Source of the DNA: Haloplanus salinus
Lineage (GTDB): Archaea; Halobacteriota; Halobacteria; Halobacteriales; Haloferacaceae
Assembly (NCBI RefSeq): GCF_003336245.1
Contig: NZ_QPHM01000001.1
Coordinates: forward strand, 2,050,113-2,114,112
Length of the DNA stretch: 64,000 nt
Reading direction: 5' to 3'
Positions within the stretch are counted from its first letter, which is position 1, and the number at the start of each line of letters is the position of its first letter. The translations under genes and the position numbers were made by a program. Under the pieces are notes generated by a model. It did no database searches. It saw only the letters and a program-made list of their open reading frames with translations, and was not told the origin of the DNA. Positions 41,929 through 49,910 of the stretch are shown here, piece by piece.

Positions 41929-41948
41929 TGGATGGGCCAACGCGGATT
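41929..41948. repeat. Left attachment site (partial tRNA-Ile 3' end)
   Basis: TGGATGGGCCAACGCGGATT repeats the tRNA-Ile 3' end at 49891-49910 exactly. After this core the match becomes imperfect (ATGAACCC against TGAACCGC). It is the distal copy; the integrase gene begins 160 bp inside. Confidence 0.88.
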
Positions 41949-42106
41949 ATGAACCCGCTTCGCTCCGCTCGCGGTACCGCAACGCAGGGTACGAAATACG
42001 AGGTATCAGCGCGATACTCAACCTTCTACCCTATTCCCACTACTGAGCGCACATCGGCTTGCCACCGGGAGTCGTTCCGTCTCTCGACAACACCGAGAGC
42101 AAACCA

Positions 42107-43210
42107 ATGTCGCCACACGACAACCAAAACGAAAGGAACCGGGACGACCACCAGAGTTACCACGACCTCCACGACCACCCTCACGACCTGCAACCAATCG
42201 AACCCCGTGAGGCGTACCTGTGGTACCTCGAAGAGATAGAGAACGAACACGGGTACAGCGAAACGACCGTTCAGGCCCATATGTACCGACTCGGCCACTT
42301 CATCCGCTGGTGCGAGGACGAAGAGTACATCGGCAACCTCAACAACCTCACGGGCCGGCATCTCGCACGGTTCAAGCGGTGGCGGAAGCACGACGGCGAC
42401 CTCAACAGAGTGTCACTCCATACCCAACTCAGCACTCTCAAAGTCTTCCTCAAGTGGGCAGAGAAGACCGAGGCGGTCAAACTCGGGCTATTCGAGTACG
42501 TTCAACCCCCGAAGCTACGGGGGAACGACGACGTGCGAGAGCGGTTTATTGAGTCTGAATTTATGGCCGACATACTTCGCTACCACGAGAAGTTCGCCTA
42601 CGCGAGCCGTGACCACGTCGTGATGAGCCTGCTGTGGGCGACGGGAATGCGAGTCGGGTCATTGCGGTCACTCAACGTTCAGGACTACCGCCCGAACCTT
42701 GCTCGCTTGGAACTCCATCATCGCCCGGAGTCGGACACTCCATTGAAAAAGAAAGAGAAGGGCGAGCGCCACGTCGCTATCAACGACCATCTTTGCGAGC
42801 TGATAGACGACTATCTTGAGTACAACCGAGAGGACGTAATCGACGAGTACGGGCGTGACCCACTCATTACGACGGAACACGGTCGTATCCATAAGGGGAC
42901 GCTTCGGAGTACCGTCTACAAGACCACCCGACCCTGCGAGATTGCAGGCGAAGGGTGCCCCGGAGATGAAGACCCTGAGACGTGTGAGGCTGCGCACAGT
43001 ATATCGGAGTCGTCCAAGTGTCCGTACAACTACTCTCCCCACGCCATCCGCAAGGGGTCGATTACGTGGTCGCTCAAGAACGACGTACCCGCAGAGAAGG
43101 TGGGTGCCCGGATGAACGTCAGTACGAAAGCGTTGGAGAAGCACTACGATATGCAGACGAAGGAAGAGTCGATGGAAGCCAGGAGGAACTACTTCGACGA
43201 GATATACTGA
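42107..43210 (+). CDS. Tyrosine recombinase (integrase) of the element
   Basis: The 367-residue protein has an N-terminal core-binding domain (about 30-130; YLWYLEEIENEHGYSETTVQAHMYRLGHF) and a catalytic domain with Arg182 in ATGMRVGSL, His312-x-x-Arg315 in SPHAIRKGS and the nucleophile Tyr347 in LEKHYD. A cysteine-rich insertion (CEIAGEGCPGDEDPETC) before the HxxR box may bind zinc, as in some haloarchaeal virus integrases. ATG 42107 is chosen over a TTG at 42059. It should catalyse integration and excision at tRNA-Ile. Confidence 0.93.
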   Translation: MSPHDNQNERNRDDHQSYHDLHDHPHDLQPIEPREAYLWYLEEIENEHGYSETTVQAHMYRLGHFIRWCEDEEYIGNLNNLTGRHLARFKRWRKHDGDLNRVSLHTQLSTLKVFLKWAEKTEAVKLGLFEYVQPPKLRGNDDVRERFIESEFMADILRYHEKFAYASRDHVVMSLLWATGMRVGSLRSLNVQDYRPNLARLELHHRPESDTPLKKKEKGERHVAINDHLCELIDDYLEYNREDVIDEYGRDPLITTEHGRIHKGTLRSTVYKTTRPCEIAGEGCPGDEDPETCEAAHSISESSKCPYNYSPHAIRKGSITWSLKNDVPAEKVGARMNVSTKALEKHYDMQTKEESMEARRNYFDEIY

Positions 43211-43386: not shown

Positions 43387-45450
43387 ATGGAAAACGAACA
43401 CAATTACTCAATCAACACTCCTGAAACAACCTGTGAACTCCCTCTGTCTGCGGAAGAAATGCAAATTCTATCAGAATCAAAGCAAGGAACTCCAATAACG
43501 ACAGAGACAGCAGAAATCCGTCTACAGCAAGCCATTACAGATGCCCTCCGAAACAGCGAGAACTCCCTTCTTGCCGCACCAACTGGTCTTGGAAAGACAC
43601 ACATTGTGGCGACAACACCGTGGCGTGATTTTCCGGAAATCACGGGGAACCAGCCCGTCATTCATATCTCACAAACGATTGATGCCCGCGAGGATGCGGT
43701 AAGGATGAGTGAAGAAGCGGGCGTGAAATACACCGTTCTCAAGGGCCGAGATGAGGTGTGTTCCGTGGCCCGTGGTGACTATGATCGGCAATTACATCGG
43801 ATTGACCGACTTACCGCCTCCGAGTGGCTTAAGAAAAAATGTGATCGGGAAAATATTTCATTTGCAGAAGCACACGATTACCTAAGCCGGCAATTTGGTG
43901 GGTTACCCTGTGGTAGAGGTCGTCAATGTTCCTCTAAAACCCAATGGCAGAATGTTCCTCGAAAGGACAAACAGCCGGAATATGACATTATTCACGCAAC
44001 TGCCACGTTTGCCAAACTCGGCCAACTTACTGCGGGTACGAACGTCATTTTCGATGAGCGACCAGATTACGCAGTTCCCGTTAGGCAGAACAAACTACGG
44101 AAGGCTGTAACCGGATTCCTTCATAACCGAACCTCCAACGCGAAAGAGTACGATTGGGAAGACCTCATCAAACTAACACAACGAGTCAATCCTCAGTCAG
44201 GGGTTCTTGATGACCTAACAGAAGGCTGGTTTGATAAATTAGAAACCTACGGAAAACTCTTTGAAGAGGATGTATCAAAAAGAGAGAAATTCAAATCAAT
44301 GGGGGCCACTAACGCGCTGGTTCCTGCTATTGGACGAGCGATGGTTAGTGCCTATCCGGTCGGCAACGGTCGATATAGAGGTCAAAGCGACTTACTAACA
44401 ATCGTATTTGACGCTAAAAATAATGTCAGAGTTATCCACGAACGGCCAGATTTGTCCAAAACCCGCTGTGTGATTGGATTAGACGCTCACCCCTCGGAAC
44501 GGCTGTGGCAATTCCATACCGGAATCGAGTTCCAACCTGGCGAATTACTGACGCCGGAGGAGCGACAATATTGGCGGACCGTTGAGCGGGGGCTGTACGT
44601 CGTTCAAATTGGAAGTAACACGAACCCTCTGACCTCGGGATGGCGTACATCAAAGCAGGAAACTGAGGTTAAAGCGATCATTGACGCTCTACACGAGAAA
44701 GCCGGCGAAGCATTTGGGACAGCAATCTGCCCGAAAGAAATCAAAAGGGACGTGGAACAGATAATGAGGAATGCCGGGATTGAGGAGCCGCAGCTAATGC
44801 ATTATGGAGAAGAAAAAAGTCGGAATGAGTTTGGGGAAGAAAGAGTCGGACTGCTGTTGGGTTGCATCGATCCCGGCGACCACGCCATACTCAACAATTT
44901 GGCCCTGTTAGATCTGTTCGCGGAGCCGGAAACAGTGGTTGACGAGGATGGAAACGTAGTCGTTGACGAGGATGGAAAAGAACTCCGAGCATACGGGAGG
45001 GGGTTTATTGGGGAAGATGCTGATGCCGCCAACGAATTTCTTGAATCTGTTCGAGAAATGCATATCGCTCAGAGTATCGGACGCTACGCTCGGAACGCTC
45101 GTGATACTAACCTCGGTGCGATAGTCTACGTGTGGACAGATGCTATTCCCGAAGATATGGTTGACCACCGTATTTCCGGAGTTCGTCTTTACCGGGGCAA
45201 GAAGCGAGATGCTATAGCGAATTATGTCTACGAGACTGATGAGCCAGTCACTAAGAAGGAAGTCGTTACGGCGTTAAGGGACGATCTTGATGGCCTGACA
45301 GACAAATACGTGTGGCAGGTGTTATCGCAAATGGCCGATCAGGGTGTTGTCTCTCGTTCAAAAGGAACCGGCCCGTATGGTGCAGATGAGTATGAATACA
45401 GAGCGGGTAAGTTGGAACCCTCGATTGATCTAACGATCAGGGCACTATAG
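43387..45450 (+). CDS. XPD/DinG-like helicase with four cysteines and a DERP Walker B, plus wHTH tail
   Basis: The 687-residue protein has Walker A APTGLGKT (64-71). VLKGRDEVC (117-125) resembles the KGRxNYxC start of XPD/DinG iron-sulfur domains, and cysteines 125, 152, 175 and 181 lie between motif Ia and Walker B as in those enzymes. DIIHATATFAKL precedes Walker B, which is IFDERP (221-226) instead of DEAH. Motif VI is AQSIGRYARN near 561-570. Residues 610-670 look like a winged HTH. It may be the element's replication helicase or initiator. Composition is AT-richer than the chromosome. Confidence 0.75.
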   Translation: MENEHNYSINTPETTCELPLSAEEMQILSESKQGTPITTETAEIRLQQAITDALRNSENSLLAAPTGLGKTHIVATTPWRDFPEITGNQPVIHISQTIDAREDAVRMSEEAGVKYTVLKGRDEVCSVARGDYDRQLHRIDRLTASEWLKKKCDRENISFAEAHDYLSRQFGGLPCGRGRQCSSKTQWQNVPRKDKQPEYDIIHATATFAKLGQLTAGTNVIFDERPDYAVPVRQNKLRKAVTGFLHNRTSNAKEYDWEDLIKLTQRVNPQSGVLDDLTEGWFDKLETYGKLFEEDVSKREKFKSMGATNALVPAIGRAMVSAYPVGNGRYRGQSDLLTIVFDAKNNVRVIHERPDLSKTRCVIGLDAHPSERLWQFHTGIEFQPGELLTPEERQYWRTVERGLYVVQIGSNTNPLTSGWRTSKQETEVKAIIDALHEKAGEAFGTAICPKEIKRDVEQIMRNAGIEEPQLMHYGEEKSRNEFGEERVGLLLGCIDPGDHAILNNLALLDLFAEPETVVDEDGNVVVDEDGKELRAYGRGFIGEDADAANEFLESVREMHIAQSIGRYARNARDTNLGAIVYVWTDAIPEDMVDHRISGVRLYRGKKRDAIANYVYETDEPVTKKEVVTALRDDLDGLTDKYVWQVLSQMADQGVVSRSKGTGPYGADEYEYRAGKLEPSIDLTIRAL

Positions 45451-45915
45451 ATCATTACCTAACCATTACAGAGGTTTTTGTAAGGGAAAAGTAATGATTT
45501 CTTTTAATTTTTCAAACAGAGAACGCGGCCGCCCGTGAACAACGTCTTGTATACCGAGAGGACAACAGATGTTCGACTCAGAGAACGCGGATCAACACCA
45601 GAAACCAAGGTCCAAACTGGTCACAAACCAACTGTAATATACAGTTTTACACGAAACCAGTAGCCACACCTCAAGTAGAAGAGTGGAAACAACTCTGTGT
45701 TTGCCGACCGTCCACGCTACCGGTTCCGAGAACTCTCTCATAGAACTATTTGACGCCCTCTACGCGAGCTGCTGAGCCGATTCAGAACATTCCGCATTTC
45801 TATCCCCCCTCTACCCCTTTCGTCGAATATCCCCATACGTGCCAGCCGAAAATCAGAAAAAATTCTGAGCGGCTTACCTCGCTATGCGAACAAGCGCGAC
45901 TGACCGTGGCACAAC
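45451..45915. other. Noncoding region of the element with repeats (origin candidate)
   Basis: The 465-bp gap has T-rich tracts (45464-45513) that may end helicase transcription, two copies of CAGAGAACGCGG (45517-45528, 45579-45590), several ACCA-type short repeats near 45596-45630 and an inverted repeat at 45630-45646. No gene is seen. The repeat content and place after the helicase gene fit an origin or partition site. Confidence 0.5.
45630..45646. repeat. Perfect inverted repeat AACTGTA-ATA-TACAGTT
   Basis: Seven-bp arms flank an ATA spacer, so the centre reads as a TATA-like element. It lies in the noncoding repeat region. It may be an operator or an origin iteron. Confidence 0.5.
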
Positions 45916-46155
45916 CTATCCCTTCGGAGAGTCTGGTCGCAACCATACAACAGCCAGCCCCCCGATCTTCTTCTTCCGTATCTCGCCGCGTTCTCTGAGC
46001 GACTCCAACTTATTATACGCTGTCTTCTGCGCCACATCAAGCGCCTCTGCGACTTCGCTGGTTGTTCGAGGCTCCGTATCGGGGAACAACTCAAGGACGG
46101 CGTCAAGGGTCACCGTGGCTTGATACCGCCCGCTCTCGTCGCGCTCTTGACTCAT
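45916..46155 (-). CDS. wHTH repressor of the element
   Basis: The 79-residue protein is little more than a winged HTH: RTTSEVAEALDVAQKTAYNKLESLRERGEI and a wing ending VVWLRPDSP. It resembles the HTH of the chromosomal lactate regulator (14383-14943). ATG 46155 begins MSQERDESG. It is divergent from the SWIM gene, with a palindromic operator between them, the layout of a phage-type or plasmid copy-control repressor. The target is inferred. Confidence 0.82.
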   Translation of the reverse strand: MSQERDESGRYQATVTLDAVLELFPDTEPRTTSEVAEALDVAQKTAYNKLESLRERGEIRKKKIGGLAVVWLRPDSPKG

Positions 46156-46199
46156 AGAGGGAGGTACACACCGAGACCGCATAGCAGTTTCCACTACTG

Positions 46200-46237
46200 A
46201 CGTGGGTAACCGATAAGGCTATATCGAATACCCACGT
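46200..46237. promoter_or_regulatory. Operator flanking the divergent promoter of the element
   Basis: ACGTGGGTA (46200-46208) and TACCCACGT (46229-46237) form a perfect inverted repeat. The TATA-like GCTATATCG (46218-46226) lies between the arms. A further direct copy, ACGTAGGTAAC, follows at 46234-46244. This is the likely site of the wHTH repressor. Confidence 0.7.
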
Positions 46238-46247
46238 AGGTAACGGT

Positions 46248-46313
46248 GAGAAGAGCGGCTCCCTCGGGGCGTGAAAGCGTCCGGGTGGTAGGAACACCCG
46301 GAGCCGGCTTCTC
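46248..46313 (+). promoter_or_regulatory. Structured 5' leader of the SWIM gene
   Basis: About 25 bp after the TATA element the leader starts GAGAAGAGCGGCTCC (46248-46262), which pairs imperfectly with GGAGCCGGCTTCTC (46300-46313). Inside, TCCGGGTG (46280-46287) pairs perfectly with CACCCGGA (46295-46302). A GGAG lies before the ATG at 46330. Such long folded leaders are unusual in haloarchaea. Confidence 0.5.
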
Positions 46314-46329
46314 TGGTAGGAGAAAGCCA

Positions 46330-46794
46330 ATGGAAACCAATGAAAGCGGTATAGAAAAGACTGCTGTTGAGTATCTGAACTACGGGGAGAAGACTGCGAA
46401 GCGAGCAGAGTGGGAGTGTTGGTCATTCCGGCTGGTCGGCCCACTCCAAGTCTTAGTGACGAACGAATCCTACGGGGTCGAGAAGGACGCGCACGCCTAC
46501 GTGGTGGCCGTCGAGGACGTGGGTGGAGTGTTTGTACCCCGAGAGTGCGAATGCCCTGCTGACCGCTTCAGGGACGACTACGATTGCAAGCATAAATTAG
46601 CCCTCGTCGCGGTAGGCGGGCAGGTGGTGATGGAAGCGGCGGCGGCGTTCTCTGAGAAATCGCTTGGAGAGCCAACTTCTGTCGAACCTACTCCGGTAGC
46701 AGATGGTGGCCGTCCTAAGAGTCCGACGTGTGAGTGCGAAAAGTTAGGCGAACTACAGTGCTGGTCGTGCTACCAGTCTGAGCGCAAAGAGTAA
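46330..46794 (+). CDS. SWIM zinc-finger protein
   Basis: The 154-residue protein has a SWIM motif CxC-(10)-CxH: Cys73, Cys75, Cys86 and His88 in ECECPADRFRDDYDCKHK. SWIM domains bind zinc and often DNA or proteins. The C terminus has a second cysteine group (CECEKLGELQCWSC). ATG 46330 follows a GGAG and a structured leader. Related SWIM proteins are frequent on haloarchaeal plasmids and proviruses. Function unknown. Confidence 0.82.
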   Translation: METNESGIEKTAVEYLNYGEKTAKRAEWECWSFRLVGPLQVLVTNESYGVEKDAHAYVVAVEDVGGVFVPRECECPADRFRDDYDCKHKLALVAVGGQVVMEAAAAFSEKSLGEPTSVEPTPVADGGRPKSPTCECEKLGELQCWSCYQSERKE

Positions 46795-46818: not shown

Positions 46819-47283
46819 ATGTGTTTCAAAGAACCAACTGAAATAGGATTGGCCTTCACGAACGGGTATATTCCGGTATTCGAGAATGATGAGGGTGAGA
46901 TCCTGTGGGCATACGATCCTGTTCGAGGGACGTATTGCGGTGAATTCGATGACGGCCTGCATTCAGATCCCCAATCGGTGCTGTGGCCGAGCGAGTTTAG
47001 CAGAAGAACAGGCTTGCTTGACGTTCGAGAGCCACCACATCTGATTTACGAACCAGAGGGTACGTATGATGATTTTATCTCAGGTATGGAAAGAGAGTAT
47101 CGGATTCACTTAGTCCGTGACGGGAAGGTTCTCTGCAATAATCCGATGATCGTTCCGCACCCCGAATCCGAGGAATTGACTCCGTTGTCCGCATTCTCGG
47201 AAGAAGAGCTTCTACGCCTGTACGGACAGATGTGTTCAAACTGTCCGGATATAGACGATGTCCTATCCGAGGAGGAGAAATAG
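46819..47283 (+). CDS. Hypothetical protein of the element
   Basis: The 154-residue protein lies 24 bp after the SWIM gene and is probably cotranscribed. It is acidic, with aromatic-rich stretches (GYIPVFENDEGEILWAYD) and a CSNC near the end. No signal peptide or membrane segment is seen. I do not recognise the family. Confidence 0.65.
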   Translation: MCFKEPTEIGLAFTNGYIPVFENDEGEILWAYDPVRGTYCGEFDDGLHSDPQSVLWPSEFSRRTGLLDVREPPHLIYEPEGTYDDFISGMEREYRIHLVRDGKVLCNNPMIVPHPESEELTPLSAFSEEELLRLYGQMCSNCPDIDDVLSEEEK

Positions 47284-47783: not shown

Positions 47784-48389
47784 TCAGACACCTTTATCAG
47801 AGTTTTCTACAGACAACCCGTTATTATCAGGGACATTTGTCTCATCCGTGTCAGCAATGATTTTCGACATCCCACTCCGGTCATTTGGAGTTCCAATAGT
47901 GTTGATGGTTAATCCGACGTTGAATCCTTCCCCTACCTTGATATATTGAATGACCTCTCTATCACCGTATCCCGCCTTTTTTGGATGTCCCTGATCGATA
48001 CTGATCACCTCGTTGTCATCGGAATTGTAATAATTTACTCCTTGGATATTTGACTTTATCCATACCCACGCAGGCTCTGTCCCTTGGTTGGTAATCGAAA
48101 ACAGATCGTCGAAGAACGTTACCGCCTGTTCGTTCACCCCCTTTCCGTTAGCACTGGTCTCATCAATAGAAATTGAGAGCGTATTTGATCGACCACCGGA
48201 GCCGTCTACAAAAGCCTCAGAGTTCGGCGTATCTATTTCCTTCATCTGTAGATAGGCATTATTATCCGCGGCTACTGAGATTGACACATTACGGCTCGCA
48301 CTCACACTTGTGAACGCACCCGTGCCCGTGACAGCTGCCGCGCCGGCAGCGAGCGATCCCACACCTGCGATGAACTTGCGCCGTTGCAT
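47784..48389 (-). CDS. DUF1102-like Tat-exported protein
   Basis: The 201-residue protein starts with a signal MQRRKFIAGVGSLAAGAAAV and TGTGAFTSVSASRNVSI, the usual start of haloarchaeal DUF1102 secreted proteins. The rest is beta-rich (DLFSITNQGTEPAWVWIKSN). It is likely a surface or secreted protein related to TasA-like folds. It is AT-rich and part of the element's cargo. Confidence 0.78.
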   Translation of the reverse strand: MQRRKFIAGVGSLAAGAAAVTGTGAFTSVSASRNVSISVAADNNAYLQMKEIDTPNSEAFVDGSGGRSNTLSISIDETSANGKGVNEQAVTFFDDLFSITNQGTEPAWVWIKSNIQGVNYYNSDDNEVISIDQGHPKKAGYGDREVIQYIKVGEGFNVGLTINTIGTPNDRSGMSKIIADTDETNVPDNNGLSVENSDKGV

Positions 48390-48662: not shown

Positions 48663-49379
48663 CTAATCGAGATCCGCGGCATCAAGAGCCGCGTTCCACG
48701 ACCCAAACCGATTGATATAGGTGCCCGGACTGAACTCGCCGTCCCGCTGCATATCGTCGGTCGTTGGAATCGTGTCAAGTGCCTCAGCTAAGCGCCGTAG
48801 TTCCGTTACCAGTTCCGCTTCGGATATCTTGTTCTTTGGTCGCCGACGATCAAAGCCTGCCGCTTCAAGTGCCTTATTCCAAGAATCGAAGTGCTTCCGG
48901 TACGTGATTCGGCCAAAAGACCCGTGTTCGGCCATATCTCGGCTTGATGGTGTTCGCCCCAACTCCTCGGCGAGGCGTTCGATTTCTGCAAGTAACTCCT
49001 GATCTGACCGCTCTTTTCGATCCGGTTTTTGAGAAAGCCCGGATGCCGCAAGCGCGTCGTTCCACGATCCGAATCGGTTAGTGTACGTCTGAAGCCCGTG
49101 GTGGCCGTGGCTGGTCATCTCTTGCCCTGTCGGAGTCGTGTTCAGTTCGTCAGCCAATCGACGTAGTTCCGCACAGAGCGATTCGGTAGGGATCTTTCGT
49201 CCTGCAGGTTGGTCAATATCGGCAACAGCAAGCGCGTTCGCCCACGAACCGAACTCGTCTCTGTAGTCCGCGATTGTATATGCTCCCAGTTTATCAATTT
49301 CATCAGGGGTTGGTCCGCGATCAAGATTGGTCGCGAGGCGTTGAAGTTCAATTATCAAATCCTCTCGCTGATGAGCCAT
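48663..49379 (-). CDS. Four tandem homing-endonuclease-associated repeats
   Basis: The 238-residue protein is built of four repeats of about 57 residues, each with LxxELxRLAxxLxxxPTxxxM, a TYxxRFGSWNxAL box and AAGL. This is the helical homing-endonuclease-associated repeat, a probable DNA-binding unit. No HNH or other nuclease motif is present. It may be a sequence-specific DNA-binding protein of the element. Confidence 0.82.
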   Translation of the reverse strand: MAHQREDLIIELQRLATNLDRGPTPDEIDKLGAYTIADYRDEFGSWANALAVADIDQPAGRKIPTESLCAELRRLADELNTTPTGQEMTSHGHHGLQTYTNRFGSWNDALAASGLSQKPDRKERSDQELLAEIERLAEELGRTPSSRDMAEHGSFGRITYRKHFDSWNKALEAAGFDRRRPKNKISEAELVTELRRLAEALDTIPTTDDMQRDGEFSPGTYINRFGSWNAALDAADLD

Positions 49380-49734
49380 TTTGTGTAGAAAAAACCTGAT
49401 TGTCCTTTACTCTCATTATATTGAATGAACGACCCCTGCTCGGCGTCTGAGATCCTCGCAATAATAAACCACTCATCTGAGCTTCAGAGAGTTGGATATC
49501 CCTCAAATGATCTCTTCGCCGCTCTGCTTTCTCCGCCGCCGAACCTTTCTCGTAGTGCTTGTCCAATATCCGCCCGCTCATATTCGCTCGCTCGCCCGTC
49601 ACGTCCTTTGGCTGGCCCGCGTTCCTTGCGGCAGTCACGTAGCCTCGACGTAGCGAGTAGAGATATACGGAACTCCCGATAAGCCTCGGTTGAAACATCC
49701 CGCTTTCCTGATACTCGTATTTAAATAGACACAC
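49380..49734 (-). pseudogene. C-terminal remnant of a second tyrosine recombinase
   Basis: The frame (49348-49734) contains YSLRRGYVTAARNAGQPKD and ANMSGRILDKHYEKGS, the RxxR-region and nucleophile Tyr of a haloarchaeal integrase, then AERRRDHLRDI. The N-terminal four-fifths and the histidine of the HxLRR box are missing (Tyr in its place). It is a different lineage from the element's integrase. It sits against the tRNA, as left by an earlier integration. Confidence 0.75.
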
Positions 49735-49890: not shown

Positions 49891-49910
49891 TGGATGGGCC
49901 AACGCGGATT
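49891..49910. repeat. Right attachment site within tRNA-Ile
   Basis: The 20-bp core TGGATGGGCCAACGCGGATT covers the last 16 nt of the tRNA-Ile gene plus 4 flanking bases. Integration restores a complete tRNA. Confidence 0.88.

Follow-up and report, generated by a model that had tools for sequence, protein, structure and literature searches.

A predicted XPD/DinG-type helicase with a C-terminal winged helix as the probable replication initiator of a small integrative element in haloarchaea

Replication proteins of mobile elements that combine a primase with a helicase are known with SF3, DnaB/RepA-type, MCM and SF1 motors, and the known XPD/DinG helicases act in repair, transcription or CRISPR rather than in initiation. 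Replication of pRN1 requires a stem-loop downstream of a gene that encodes a PrimPol, an SF3 helicase and a winged helix, but a small stem-loop that directly follows the orf904 stop codon is dispensable (PMC4234260). Mpal_2033 and arCOG07809, together with the fuselloviral C674, have the order primase, SF1 helicase, HTH and Zn, and stand-alone helicases of this kind occur in viruses (PMC4158269). The AEPs of the All3500 family have C-terminal domains that remotely resemble SF2 helicases, and the text that describes them contains no word starting with 'halo' and names no XPD helicase (PMC5862659). No description of an XPD/DinG-type helicase in a primase-helicase Rep protein was found in the literature searched, in which coverage of subscription journals was thin.

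The window, which is the whole stretch of 64,000 nucleotides analysed here, belongs to a haloarchaeal chromosome (G000:C1) and contains a helicase gene (Table 1) whose product is likely to be the replication initiator-helicase of a small integrative plasmid. Relatives of this protein were found in 89 of 292 Halobacteria genomes and in 42 of 77 genera, a distribution that, together with the conserved motifs, argues that the sequence features are not due to chance; beyond the Halobacteria, in a sample of the phylum, the matches span the winged helix only. Residue conservation was counted in a 36-row alignment of relatives, in which K70, W147, H163, D223, E224, D366, Q562, R566 and R569 are invariant and C125, C175, C181 and P226 are present in all rows but one, so that the motifs show the set predicted for an active helicase. 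The sequence-only reading had pointed to a Walker B motif of DERP and to cysteines 125, 152, 175 and 181 behind KGRDEVC, and all of these are where it placed them; because DExP occurs throughout the alignment, DERP is one case of a family signature and no quirk of the window copy. In the tree, the window protein falls inside a clade of 11 stand-alone proteins (support 98/92). The Pfam scan gave it no match over the cutoff, its PHROG match is to an unnamed family (E 2.8e-26), and among viral contigs a single-protein query returned no matches and a query with the family alignment returned ten.

Table 1. Positions in the window of the helicase gene, its motifs and the other features of the integrated element
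Feature	Position	Strand	Basis or remark
attL, 20-bp copy of tRNA-Ile 3' end, left element end	41929-41948	.	exact repeat of 49891-49910, distance 7962
Tyrosine recombinase (integrase)	42059-43210	+	PF02899 2e-11, PF00589 2e-9, phrog_1 1e-29
Helicase gene with C-terminal winged helix	43387-45450	+	687 aa, ATG start, intact ORF
Walker A PTGLGKT, residues 65-71	43579-43599	+	K70 in 36/36 rows
Putative metal/Fe-S insertion, C125-C181 including C152, H163 and C175	43759-43929	+	conservation; C125 alignment to host XPD/DinG
Walker B DERP, residues 223-226	44053-44064	+	D and E 36/36; P 35/36
Motif VI QSIGRYAR, residues 562-569	45070-45093	+	Q562, R566, R569 36/36
C-terminal wHTH, about residues 603-672	45193-45402	+	AF2 secondary structure, pLDDT; weak MarR-type profile matches
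Two-tier stem-loop (inverted repeat), candidate origin	45451-45498	.	starts directly after helicase stop codon
Iteron-like repeat CAGAGAACGCGG, copy 1	45517-45528	+	0/200 shuffles; similar copies in L069
Iteron-like repeat CAGAGAACGCGG, copy 2	45579-45590	+	repeat search downstream of helicase
Small wHTH protein, phrog_20952 transcriptional regulator	45916-46194	-	1.5e-12; 87% identical in L069
Iteron-like repeat CAGAGAACGCGG, copy 3, inverted, inside small wHTH gene	45986-45997	-	repeat search
Imperfect 21-nt inverted repeat between divergent wHTH and SWIM genes	46195-46242	.	conserved in L069
SWIM zinc-finger protein	46246-46794	+	PF04434 0.0016, below cutoff; homologs in L069, L070, L074, L079
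154-aa protein, function not assigned	46819-47283	+	88% identical in sister element L069
TafE-like (fimbrial adapter family) secreted protein, cargo	47784-48389	-	below family cutoff
Four HNH_repeat (homing-endonuclease-associated) units, without nuclease domain match	48663-49379	-	protein composed of these units
C-terminal integrase fragment beside tRNA-Ile	49348-49734	-	up to 75% identical over 59 aa to L072 integrase
attR, tRNA-Ile 3' end, right element end	49891-49910	.	exact 20-bp repeat

An AlphaFold2 model of the window protein, made with 28 relatives in the input, has a mean pLDDT of 82.8, and its best 24 matches in a Foldseek search of the PDB are all chains of XPD, DinG or CasDinG. 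Structural alignment with VIA-align 2 gave a Z of 15.3 to DinG (6fws) over 455 residues with an rmsd of 7.0, and Z was 13-15 across the comparisons with XPD/DinG folds. A direct sequence search of the PDB gave no XPD/DinG match; a profile search of the PDB gave a marginal match to 2vl7 (E 2.4), and hhalign against the host's XPD/DinG gave a weak match (E 0.008, probability 5%) over residues 48-131 only, which sets C125 opposite the first Fe-S cysteine of the host protein (KGKASMC). PF06733 (DEAD_2) matched the window protein neither in the Pfam scan nor in the search of its own genome, which has three canonical PF06733 genes. The comparison of predicted structures supports assignment of the window protein as an SF2 helicase with two RecA-like domains whose modelled fold is best matched by XPD, DinG and CasDinG, and the likeness to XPD/DinG that had been proposed from the letters is thus upheld by the Foldseek matches and the weak profile-profile match. 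The proposed C-terminal wHTH likewise appears in the model, with the order H-H-H-E-E at residues 605-671, and the tail matches MarR-type regulator profiles weakly (E 0.01-0.04). The window protein shares with the XPD/Rad3-DinG family the predicted fold, motifs I and VI, and cysteines inserted after a KGRxxxC entry, between motif Ia and Walker B, but it differs in having DExP (as throughout its family) where XPD/DinG have DEAH, LDAxP at the place of the SAT-like motif III (assigned by eye), no PF06733 match, a variable C152 with an invariant H163, and a family that has a C-terminal wHTH, resides on mobile elements and includes primase-fused relatives. ORF B494 of an archaeal virus, Sulfolobus virus Kamchatka 1, is a putative stand-alone helicase predicted to share this fold (BFVD, E 4e-11), but is only about 13% identical to the window protein.

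Many relatives are 1000-1760 aa long and have a primase N-terminal to the helicase, and such fused proteins occur in plasmids of 8.9, 10.8, 14.0 and 23.7 kb. In L033 (the 8.9-kb plasmid) and in L034 and L057, the primase is an AEP PrimPol (phrog_13901/1829, E ~1e-25), and the AEP parts match the NrS-1 primase with E values of 1e-7 to 2e-15 (L057: 2e-15); the AEP assignment is from sequence, and in the full fused model of L057 (mean pLDDT 72.3) much of the AEP part is of low confidence. In L031 (10.8 kb), L032 (23.7 kb) and L082 (14.0 kb), it is a DnaG/Toprim-like primase (phrog_47, PF08275). The helicase and wHTH of L031 and L033 are 75.5% identical, but their N-termini are unrelated (Toprim/DnaG-like versus AEP), and by this sequence comparison the two sister small plasmids represent a clean natural domain swap. 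Between L059 and a Halorubrum tailed virus (OP630575) the AEPs share 59% identity, and the AEP of L033 is 51% identical to the P4-type primase of the Halarchaeum plasmid pCBA1220-05, but the AEPs of OP630575 and pCBA1220-05 run into D5_N/DUF5906 helicases of SF3 type and not into an XPD/DinG-type helicase. The comparison of L031 with L033 and these AEP comparisons together indicate that, of the four possible pairings of two primases with two helicases, at least three have arisen among near relatives. In the tailed proviruses L059 and L063, the fused gene lies upstream of the terminase, portal and head genes. No N-terminal AEP PrimPol domain is present in the window protein or its clade. The chromosomal loci L058, L044 and L012 hold broken or frame-split copies of primase-helicase genes, which point to decaying integrated elements.

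The fused relatives have the same order of AEP primase, helicase and winged helix as ORF904 of the small plasmid pRN1, which also has a structured element just 3' of its rep gene (PMC4234260, PMC4158269), and the window protein has the C-terminal winged helix. The differences are that the helicase here has an XPD/DinG-type SF2 fold and that of pRN1 is a hexameric SF3 helicase, that the form in the window has no primase, and that some relatives have a DnaG/Toprim-type primase instead of an AEP. Mpal_2033, arCOG07809 and C674 similarly comprise Rep helicases of archaeal elements with and without a primase, but are described as superfamily 1 rather than as XPD/DinG type and are set apart here by that description (PMC4158269). 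The All3500-family AEPs, likewise compared by description, are similar in the fusion of an AEP to an SF2-like domain on mobile elements, but are nearly all bacterial or from phage (PMC5862659).

The helicase gene of the window lies in an element of 7.96 kb between 20-bp att repeats, within which G+C drops locally from about 68% to 52% (41.9-49.9 kb). A tyrosine integrase and direct repeats of a tRNA 3' end are present, and the relative G293 has the empty site, with both flanks joined at one copy of the att repeat; the helicase is thus element-borne, as had been suggested. The site at this tRNA-Ile, compared in G293, G239 and G172 (L109, L110 and L111, respectively), is a hotspot: besides being empty in G293, it holds a low-GC remnant of 4.5 kb in G239 and, in G172, some 9 kb that include another integrase. 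The integrase and the helicase are the only genes common to a set of seven tRNA-anchored elements (5.6-8.6 kb), the window element and six further ones, and in the smallest of them (L077, 5.6 kb) the other plausible genes are two small zinc-ribbon ORFs. The scanned ORFs of the window element include no other known replication protein, and no Pfam match to a rolling-circle Rep or to Orc1/Cdc6 was obtained for the main ORFs of the window element and four others. None of the stand-alone elements was observed in episomal form.

A stem-loop built of two stems, the outer about 10-11 bp and the inner about 6 bp long, is present at the helicase stop codon in all 11 loci of the stand-alone clade (window included). 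In the alignment of its 17 pairs, 89.1% of cells are paired, compared to 73% after shuffling and 32-39% in slid controls, and 13 of the 17 pairs have changes on both sides among the 11 relatives (0/500 shuffles). A covariance model of the stem-loop, searched against 194 genomes, matched at helicase stop codons in four of them, with a single weak match elsewhere. The weak match (G140:C19, 5665-5715; L121; E 0.005) is on a 12-kb contig that has a ParA-like gene and no helicase match, and is probably due to chance, given that no helicase adjoins it and that 194 genomes were searched. Rfam had no match at the stem-loop, which is weak or absent after most fused genes and was rejected as a trait of all members. 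A 12-bp repeat (CAGAGAACGCGG) has three copies within 600 nt downstream of the helicase (0/200 shuffles). Downstream repeats occur in four of seven elements, those of L074, L077 and L049 being of other kinds; L070, L072 and L078 have none, and iterons were rejected as a family-wide trait. From sequence, the stem-loop and the nearby repeats constitute a candidate origin.

The nature of the metal site and the role of the stem-loop can each be read in another way. The sequence-only reading took the four cysteines for an iron-sulfur site, of which the conservation of C125, C175 and C181 can be retained; C152 is present in only 29 of 36 rows, being missing from L007, L026 and the distant branch L031, L032, L033, L035 and L036, which keep only C125, H163, C175 and C181. 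The conserved signature in the alignment is thus C125/C175/C181 plus H163 and not four cysteines, and because C152 is absent from seven rows and H163 from none, the fourth ligand may be H163 in place of C152. The metal centre could be either a 3Cys-1His Fe-S cluster or a zinc site. A zinc-binding or structural CHCC site in a helicase that is XPD-shaped without iron-sulfur, which the invariance of H163 and the residues kept by the distant branch, L007 and L026 would favour, is the less likely of these, since the insertion occupies the place of the Fe-S domain, with C125 opposite the initial Fe-S cysteine in the KGxxxxC of the host XPD/DinG; moreover, Fe-S sites ligated by three cysteines and one histidine also exist. 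L023 (G213) is the sole row without C125, C175 and C181 and retains H163 and the helicase motifs; it is either a natural metal-less variant or a decaying copy. The stem-loop, for its part, begins right at the stop codon and is followed in the window by a T-rich stretch, as would a transcription terminator or mRNA-stability element, and an inverted repeat bound by a dimeric regulator would covary too, so that the covariation fits a hairpin and an operator alike; the small stem-loop that follows the stop codon of pRN1 orf904 is comparable in position and dispensable (PMC4234260). Such a function in place of an origin is a serious alternative to which we give somewhat less than even weight, because most relatives have no T run after the stem-loop, the spacing of the inner arms varies by 1-3 nt, which is awkward for a rigid dimer, and in G280 another good copy lies 7.3 kb away from the helicase gene. 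This second copy (C1, ~1834235; L122, ~4235) is just upstream of a small ORF and not at the helicase stop codon.

Two other roles for the helicase itself deserve comparison with initiation. The DinG/XPD helicases known so far are accessory enzymes, the host carries three canonical PF06733 genes of its own, and the stand-alone forms have no primase, all of which would suit an accessory helicase for excision, fork restart or transfer, with host Orc1/Cdc6 or something unrecognised as the starter of replication. However, the elements of 5.6-8 kb have no other recurrent gene able to start replication, and in the fused forms the helicase occupies the place that an SF3 replicative helicase has in near relatives of the same AEP; the accessory role is judged unlikely and ranks second after the initiator-helicase. 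Small genomic islands often bear defence genes, CasDinG chains are among the best fold matches, and the PADLOC profile of type IV CasDinG matches residues 47-160 of the window protein (E 5.4e-8), as might be expected of an anti-phage or CRISPR-accessory helicase carried as cargo. This role is very improbable, given that PADLOC gave no clear score in the window element for a gene of cas, CRISPR or any of its other systems, that the scanned ORFs of the element include no cas genes that would associate it with type IV csf as for CasDinG, that relatives are joined to primases of two unrelated kinds and sit within proviral replication and packaging blocks, and that no gene besides the integrase is common to the seven elements except this one.

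The fusions to two unrelated primases, the interchange with helicases of SF3 type, the gene neighbourhood in proviruses and the very small gene content of the elements point to the replicative-helicase slot, and so the window-type helicase would fill that slot of pRN1-like Rep proteins. The suggestion that the window protein is a replication initiator-helicase, which had been made from the sequence, is strongly favoured by domain fusions, swaps and the small-plasmid context; no replication assay was found for any family member, and origin binding, unwinding, initiation, the metal centre and host priming are inferred. In the proposed mechanism, the integrase would excise the element, and the C-terminal winged helix would then bind close behind the 3' end of the helicase gene, to the two-tier stem-loop at the stop codon, to the nearby 12-bp repeats, or to both. 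Opening and unwinding of the DNA would fall to the XPD/DinG-type motor, which probably holds a metal centre (Fe-S or another). In related elements a primase, AEP PrimPol or DnaG/Toprim, is fused to the N-terminus of the helicase, and the stand-alone form would rely on the host primase and polymerases, making the window protein a probable primase-free replication initiator-helicase. As a motor and starter of replication in mobile DNA, the helicase is probably of a kind not described before. Only tentatively can a distinct class of replicon be proposed, with an SF2 initiator of XPD/DinG type (possibly with 3Cys-1His iron-sulfur), no dedicated primase and a two-tier hairpin origin at the initiator's own stop codon, the core of helicase and wHTH being combined with two non-homologous primases in sister plasmids. 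If true, an XPD/DinG motor in the replicative slot with exchange of AEP and DnaG-like primases would be an added replication module, widespread in haloarchaea (89/292 genomes), and the minimal replicons of 5.6-8 kb with a compact origin would be directly testable in laboratory haloarchaea.

The remaining genes of the window element (Table 1) include a small wHTH protein that is a probable regulator of copy or gene expression of the element, and the inverted repeat between it and the divergent SWIM gene is probably its operator. The SWIM zinc-finger protein is recurrent cargo of these elements, and the integrase fragment beside the tRNA-Ile is the remnant of an earlier insertion into the same tRNA. 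The cargo of L072 and L074, judged by eye, is restriction-modification-like.
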